Both the position numbers and the translations under genes were made by a program. 49,173 bases of DNA from Deltaproteobacteria bacterium (GTDB lineage: Bacteria; Myxococcota; Myxococcia; Myxococcales; Anaeromyxobacteraceae). How positions within the stretch are numbered: the stretch's first letter is position 1; each line of letters opens with the position of its first letter. The notes beneath the pieces are model-generated. The model ran no database searches. It saw nothing but the letters and a program-made list of their open reading frames with translations, and was not told the origin of the DNA. Positions 39,783 through 40,803 of the stretch are shown here, one piece after another. The stretch is from positions 1-49,173 of the forward strand of contig JACRMN010000014.1 in the NCBI GenBank assembly GCA_016214955.1, given 5' to 3'.

Positions 39783-40271
39783 CTACTTCCTGATCGGGCA
39801 GGCGTCCACGCTGGCGCCCGGGTCGATGGCGTCGCTGCCCTTGACGATGGTGACGATCTTCCGGTCCTGGCCGATGACGAAGTTGGCCCGGCTGGCCAGC
39901 CCCACCACCGGCATGGTCCCGGCGTACTGCGCGGCCACCTTGCCGCCCGCATCCGACAGGAAGGGATAAGGCGCCTTCCGGTCCTCCTTGAACCGCTTCA
40001 GGGTCTCCACGTCGTCCGTGGAGATGGCCAGCACCTGCCCGCCCTTCTTCTCGATCTCGGCGCTCCGGTCCCGGAACGCTGCGGTGTGCTTGCTTCAACC
40101 GGGGGTGAAGGCCTTGGGGAAGAAGATCAGGATGGCGGGCCCCTTCTCCAGGACCTTGGAGAGGGTCACCGGCGTGCCGGTGGTGTCGGTCAGGGTGAAG
40201 TCGGGGGCGAGGTCTCCGACCTGGAGGCTGCCGGAGGCGCCGAGGAGCGCGGTGAGGATCGCAGGTGACAT
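39783..40271 (-). CDS. Peroxiredoxin (AhpC/TSA, Bcp-like), probable selenoprotein with in-frame UGA
   Basis: This 162-residue thioredoxin-fold peroxidase starts at ATG 40271. The frame reads VGDLAPDFTLTDTTG, then FFPKAFTPG, then a TGA at 40097-40095 (residue 59), then SKHTAAFRD and a normal peroxiredoxin C-terminal half (VLAISTDDVETLKRF, YPFLSDAGG) to a TAG at 39783. In Bcp/PrxQ proteins the residue after FTPG is the peroxidatic cysteine, so the TGA is exactly at the catalytic position. A stable hairpin with a GG-containing loop follows at 16 nt. Together these point to selenocysteine. No resolving Cys sits five residues later; the only Cys is in DACPIRK at the C-terminus. A nonsense mutation or read error is the alternative. 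Confidence 0.82.
40060..40079 (-). promoter_or_regulatory. Candidate bacterial SECIS hairpin
   Basis: On the minus strand GCGTTCCG and CGGAGCGC form an 8-bp stem (one G-U pair) around a GGAC loop. The stem begins 16 nt and the loop 24 nt after the in-frame UGA, within the spacing of known bacterial SECIS elements, whose loops carry guanines recognised by SelB. Confidence 0.65.
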
Positions 40272-40389
40272 GGTTTGGGGATAGTCGCGGCGGGGGTGCG
40301 ACGCAACGCTTCGGTGGGCCGCCGCCTTGGGGGTGGATCGCGCCGCCTGCTCGCGGTTAGATCCCGGGAGTCCCCAGGAGGAACACGCC

Positions 40390-40803
40390 ATGAAGAAGCT
40401 CGCCGCCATCCTGACCACCGCGCTGCTGGCGGCCGCCGGCTGCAGCGACACCTGCTCCACCAAGAGCGCGCCGCTCGACGCCGCCGGAAGCCCCACCTGC
40501 ACCAGCATCAGCAGCGCCGGCGCGACCGCCACGGCGCCCCTCTGCCAGCGCTGCACCGACACCAACCCGACGTGCCAGGTGGAGGTGGTGGCCAACACCA
40601 TCCAGATCAACTCCACGCTGAAGGAGTGCGACTCCAACAGGGGGTGCGGCGACCCGAGCTGCGCCAACCCGCGGCCGGCGGTGAGCTGCGCCGTGCCGGT
40701 CCTCACGCCCGGCACCTACACGGTGCAGTTCATCGGCGGGTCGGGGATGGTGCAGTACACCGCCACCGTCGGCGCCGGCGGAAACTCCACCTGCTCGCTG
40801 TAG
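40390..40803 (+). CDS. Cysteine-rich lipoprotein of unknown function
   Basis: This 137-residue exported protein has the lipoprotein signal MKKLAAILTTALLAAAGC, so Cys18 is the likely lipid anchor. The mature part holds about ten more cysteines (SDTCSTKS, SPTCTSIS, CQRCTDTNPTCQ, LKECDSNRGCGDPSC, SCAV, and TCSL at the C-terminus), a density that suggests disulfide bonds or metal binding. I do not recognise a family. GGAGG lies 9 nt before the ATG at 40390. It is divergent from the peroxiredoxin gene with 118 bp between them. Confidence 0.68.
   Translation: MKKLAAILTTALLAAAGCSDTCSTKSAPLDAAGSPTCTSISSAGATATAPLCQRCTDTNPTCQVEVVANTIQINSTLKECDSNRGCGDPSCANPRPAVSCAVPVLTPGTYTVQFIGGSGMVQYTATVGAGGNSTCSL

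Follow-up and report, generated by a model that had tools for sequence, protein, structure and literature searches.

Peroxiredoxins with selenocysteine (Sec) in a TxxU motif have been predicted in Anaeromyxobacter dehalogenans and in other Deltaproteobacteria (PMC1794560; review PMC13188914), and the 2006 survey by Zhang and colleagues lists 3 peroxiredoxin selenoproteins for A. dehalogenans (PMC1794560). Current tables routinely include the TxxU peroxiredoxin (PMC13188914). In Eubacterium acidaminophilum, the peroxiredoxin PrxU is likewise described as having a peroxidatic Sec (Sohling et al. 2001, as cited in PMC8533274). Literature searches on Sec peroxiredoxins and selenoproteins in myxobacteria returned nothing relevant apart from the surveys of 2006 and 2007, in which Anaeromyxobacter is named.

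The gene described here lies in a contig stretch of 49,173 nucleotides (nt), referred to below as the window, from a different genus of the same family, Anaeromyxobacteraceae. The window gene resembles the predicted TxxU proteins of A. dehalogenans and other Deltaproteobacteria in its PF00578 domain, PxxxTxxU motif, peroxidatic Sec, downstream bacterial SECIS element and number of such genes per genome (3); a one-to-one correspondence with the A. dehalogenans genes is suggested by this count. It shares a peroxidatic Sec with PrxU, yet scores below the NCBIfam PrxU cut-off (NF040737, 48.7 of 270 bits). With Bcp/PrxQ and AhpE proteins (5epf BcpB, 4x0x AhpE and 3hjp Bcp4; 38%, 32% and 25% identity, respectively) it shares a fold, but it differs from them in having Sec for Cys, a single C-terminal Cys and no Cys at CP+5. 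Because the A. dehalogenans proteins were listed in 2006 and TxxU stands in current tables, the window gene adds to a known type: Sec peroxiredoxins are already known in Anaeromyxobacteraceae, and this is a further case, from a different genus. What we add is a conserved C-terminal Cys and a recurrent switching between Sec and Cys that is accompanied by relic hairpins.

Results

Reading frame, fold and a candidate resolving Cys

On re-reading, the minus-strand frame proved to be exactly as the initial annotation had described it, with the TGA at 40097-40095 as the single in-frame stop between the ATG at 40271 and the TAG at 39785-39783. Reading this TGA as Sec gives a product of 162 aa, MSPAILTALLGASG...PKAFTPGUSKHTAAFRD...SVDACPIRK, in which Cys158 is the sole further Cys or Sec residue besides Sec59. 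The read-through product matched PF00578 (AhpC-TSA) at 8.1e-33 and 113.4 bits (cut-off 26) over residues 18-140; the match spans the TGA, the residues on either side forming one AhpC-TSA domain, as had been claimed from protein similarity beyond the stop. Also as claimed, the TGA that follows FTPG stands at the catalytic residue: in alignments with Bcp proteins of solved structure it falls opposite their catalytic Cys. We saw no clear Shine-Dalgarno sequence upstream of the ATG at 40271. Coordinates are collected in Table 1.

Table 1. Features of the Sec peroxiredoxin gene and of further TGA-containing genes in the host genome (G000)
Feature	Position	Strand	Remarks
Sec peroxiredoxin CDS, ATG to TAG, TGA read as Sec	39783..40271	(-)	162 residues
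Sec codon TGA, residue 59, peroxidatic position, PxxxTxxU (PKAFTPGU)	40095..40097	(-)	aligned with catalytic Cys of solved Bcp
Cys158 codon, candidate resolving Cys	39798..39800	(-)	conserved near CP+99, 79/79 orthologues
Bacterial SECIS-like hairpin, 8-bp stem, GGAC loop 40068-40071	40060..40079	(-)	loop 23 nt 3' of TGA
SelD, HGAGUACK with TGA	contig 22, L027:1531-1533		likely selenoprotein
Formate dehydrogenase FdhA, VUHGP with TGA	contig 3, L217		likely selenoprotein
Peroxiredoxin, TSGU at peroxidatic position	contig 26, L001		own 8-bp hairpin
Peroxiredoxin, TPTU at peroxidatic position	contig 11, L003		short hairpin only

An AlphaFold model of the product (mean pLDDT 91) has the Prx fold, and its nearest structure is Mycobacterium tuberculosis BcpB (5epf; Z 24.6). 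Compared over residues 15-162, the structures 5epf, 4x0x and 3hjp all fall at Z 23-25, with AhpE within about 1-2 Z units of BcpB. As a qualification to the earlier comparison with Bcp/PrxQ, the protein is better termed Bcp/PrxQ-AhpE-like; it lies under the PrxU cut-off and also under that of the NCBIfam PrxQ/Bcp equivalog (NF006960, 81.6 of 140 bits).

In all 79 orthologues that we collected from the order, Sec and Cys forms included, a Cys is found between CP+96 and CP+105, mostly at CP+99, and all but 2 of the 79 are without any further Cys; none has a Cys at CP+5, the usual PrxQ resolving position. This conservation points to Cys158 as the likely resolving Cys. A 1-residue mechanism might operate instead, in which an external thiol reduces the selenoprotein directly and no Sec59-Cys158 bond forms, as would be in keeping with the presence of the 1-Cys enzyme AhpE among the nearest folds (Z about 23). 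We consider this possible but rather unlikely, in view of the invariance of the C-terminal Cys in both forms of the protein and the lack of a Cys at CP+5.

Two side observations concern the protein and its surroundings. The peroxiredoxin and its orthologues have a conserved short hydrophobic N-terminus, e.g. MTIPLLAMLLGA, and the locus L202 has a signal-like start; such N-termini raise the question of whether the enzyme may be exported. The divergent neighbour of the gene, at 40327-40803 (+), encodes a Cys-rich protein of 158 aa with a lipoprotein-like start (LLAAAGCSD), for which no Pfam match was found; a protein similar to it adjoins the peroxiredoxin orthologue of another genome (G018, L032).

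Sec-decoding machinery, orthologues and the SECIS-like hairpin

The host genome (5.3 Mb) was searched for the 4 components of Sec decoding that the initial annotation had proposed as a check, and all were present: tRNA-Sec (74.9 bits, anticodon TCA, UCA in RNA), selA (513.7 bits), selD (390.8 bits) and selB, all over their cut-offs. Another 4 likely selenoprotein genes were noted in it, each with a single in-frame TGA at the expected Sec site, namely 2 peroxiredoxins, SelD and a formate dehydrogenase (Table 1), so that AhpC/TSA genes with one TGA each number 3, the window gene included. Across the family, tRNA-Sec was detected at 74 bits or more in 20 of 24 genomes, among them all 7 with a TGC peroxiredoxin. 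No tRNA-Sec was recovered from G008, G011, G013 and G014; 3 of these genomes are 66-80% complete and one 92%.

An orthologue of the peroxiredoxin was present in 23 of the 24 Anaeromyxobacteraceae genomes, with TGA at the Sec codon in 16 and TGC in 7. No other codon occurs at this site and the frames are otherwise uninterrupted; the comparison with relatives that had been proposed therefore yielded neither other stops nor decayed frames.

The hairpin was found as originally described, its stem starting 16 nt downstream of the TGA. Published bacterial SECIS constraints call for a loop of 3-9 nt with G in its first 2 positions, a stem of 4-16 bp, a spacing of 16-37 nt and an MFE of at most -7.5 (PMC13188914); the hairpin, with a loop of 4 nt, a stem of 8 bp, a spacing of 23 nt and -13.9 kcal/mol, falls within all of them. 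Such hairpins are common in the window, where 6.8% of 782 TGA triplets are followed by one (stem of at least 8 bp, loop G, right spacing), and by itself the hairpin is weak evidence, near chance in this G+C-rich DNA. The argument that a chance hit was improbable is accordingly not sustained for the hairpin alone, but it is for the conservation of the hairpin with TGA.

We observed the hairpin in 16 of 16 TGA orthologues of the family (weakened in one) and in none of the 7 TGC orthologues. In the TGA genes 99% of stem cells pair, as against 12-39% when the helix is slid by 1-3 columns, and the loop is GGAC or near-identical to it; in the TGC genes 39% of stem cells pair, little more than the 20-36% of the slid versions. 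Stem variation among the TGA genes is of the G-C/G-U and U-A/U-G kinds, that is, G-U wobbles, and a compensatory change from A-U to U-A is seen within the window's own genus. Among the TGA genes, 15 of 16 encode the first Arg of the stem by CGG; the 7 TGC genes all use the synonymous CGC, which is the commoner of the 2 codons in neighbouring genes. As judged from these alignments, the conservation of the hairpin with TGA and its absence with TGC is far beyond chance and decides for the Sec reading. In a few more distant TGA orthologues (G123, G126 and the f3 family) the hairpins are weaker or shifted, and f3, which comprises the most distant TGA genes, has its hairpin in another register.

These observations bear on 3 other accounts of the TGA. 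Translation might run on past the UGA because a selenium-free standard residue (Cys or Trp) is inserted there, and it is generally known that misincorporation can occur at Sec codons when selenium is scarce; the protein does continue beyond the codon. We hold this to be very improbable, given that the genome has the full Sec pathway and that, within the family, the SECIS-like hairpin persists where the codon is UGA and is gone where it is TGC. A reassigned UGA is rejected because UGA also ends neighbouring genes.

Still less credible is a nonsense mutation that truncates a former Cys peroxiredoxin, despite the use of TGA as an ordinary stop by neighbours (2 of 6 genes). Of the 23 family orthologues 16 share this TGA, as do 50 of 79 from the order (a sample favouring TGA genes); in each case it falls on the catalytic codon and nowhere else. 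Purifying selection is evident 3' of the TGA: in close pairs, to which we confined the estimates, dN is well below dS both before and after the codon, e.g. 0.019 vs 0.17 in the pair G018/G019 (between the host genome, which is G+C-rich, and its relatives, dS is close to dN, and those values were not relied on). The conserved TGA and the intact downstream frame in many genomes refute a pseudogene. Least probable of all is a TGC misread as TGA, to which the TGC of 7 relatives might have lent some colour, since TGA recurs in many independent assemblies, including the complete single-contig genomes G001, G002, G003 and G012, and is tied to the hairpin.

Sec/Cys switching across the order

The 79 orthologues comprise 50 Sec and 29 Cys forms, numbers that do not represent a frequency, as the choice of extra loci leaned towards TGA genes (4 of 60 such loci, unparsed by the motif search, were left out). 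On their tree we counted about 10 changes between the Sec and Cys states, at least 7 of them on well-supported branches, and the Sec form is present in every major branch. Two genomes contain both Sec and Cys copies: G102 (L182/L183) and G114 (L181/L186). Four Cys genes, G053, G059, G102b and G114b (L156, L163, L183 and L186, respectively), retain the full 8-bp stem, and hence the stem is no proof of Sec. From their sequences, these genes read best as recent replacements of Sec by Cys with a relic hairpin, the direction of change being a probable one. When independent pairs were used to relate Sec state to the hairpin by a sign test, the median p was 0.25; informative pairs were too few (7), with none in the opposite direction.

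Discussion

We conclude, with very little doubt, that the gene encodes a peroxiredoxin-family selenoprotein in which UGA 59 would be decoded as Sec through SelB and the hairpin, with resolution likely by Cys158. The initial annotation had proposed a Sec peroxiredoxin, and the decoding machinery, the conserved TGA, the hairpin and the intact frames of the relatives all support that proposal. The following course of events is envisaged. SelB would recognize the mRNA hairpin just downstream of UGA 59 and deliver tRNA-Sec to the codon. The selenol of Sec59 would then reduce H2O2 or organic hydroperoxides and be converted to a selenenic acid, which most likely would react with Cys158 to form a Sec59-Cys158 selenenylsulfide. 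A thioredoxin-like partner would presumably reduce this bond.

On balance we also favour, with less assurance, the view that these proteins make up a distinct myxobacterial subfamily, having Sec or Cys at the peroxidatic position, a C-terminal resolving Cys at about CP+99, and a history of many swaps that left relic SECIS hairpins. Standard annotation would split or truncate a gene of this kind, and a selenium-dependent peroxide defence would thereby be missed. If the subfamily is real, it would offer a natural set for measuring the benefit of Sec to a peroxidase: among close relatives that keep tRNA-Sec, Sec and Cys replace one another repeatedly, the SECIS hairpin being there in some, fading in others and gone from the rest, and matched Sec/Cys pairs could serve as test material for the retention or loss of selenium at one catalytic position.
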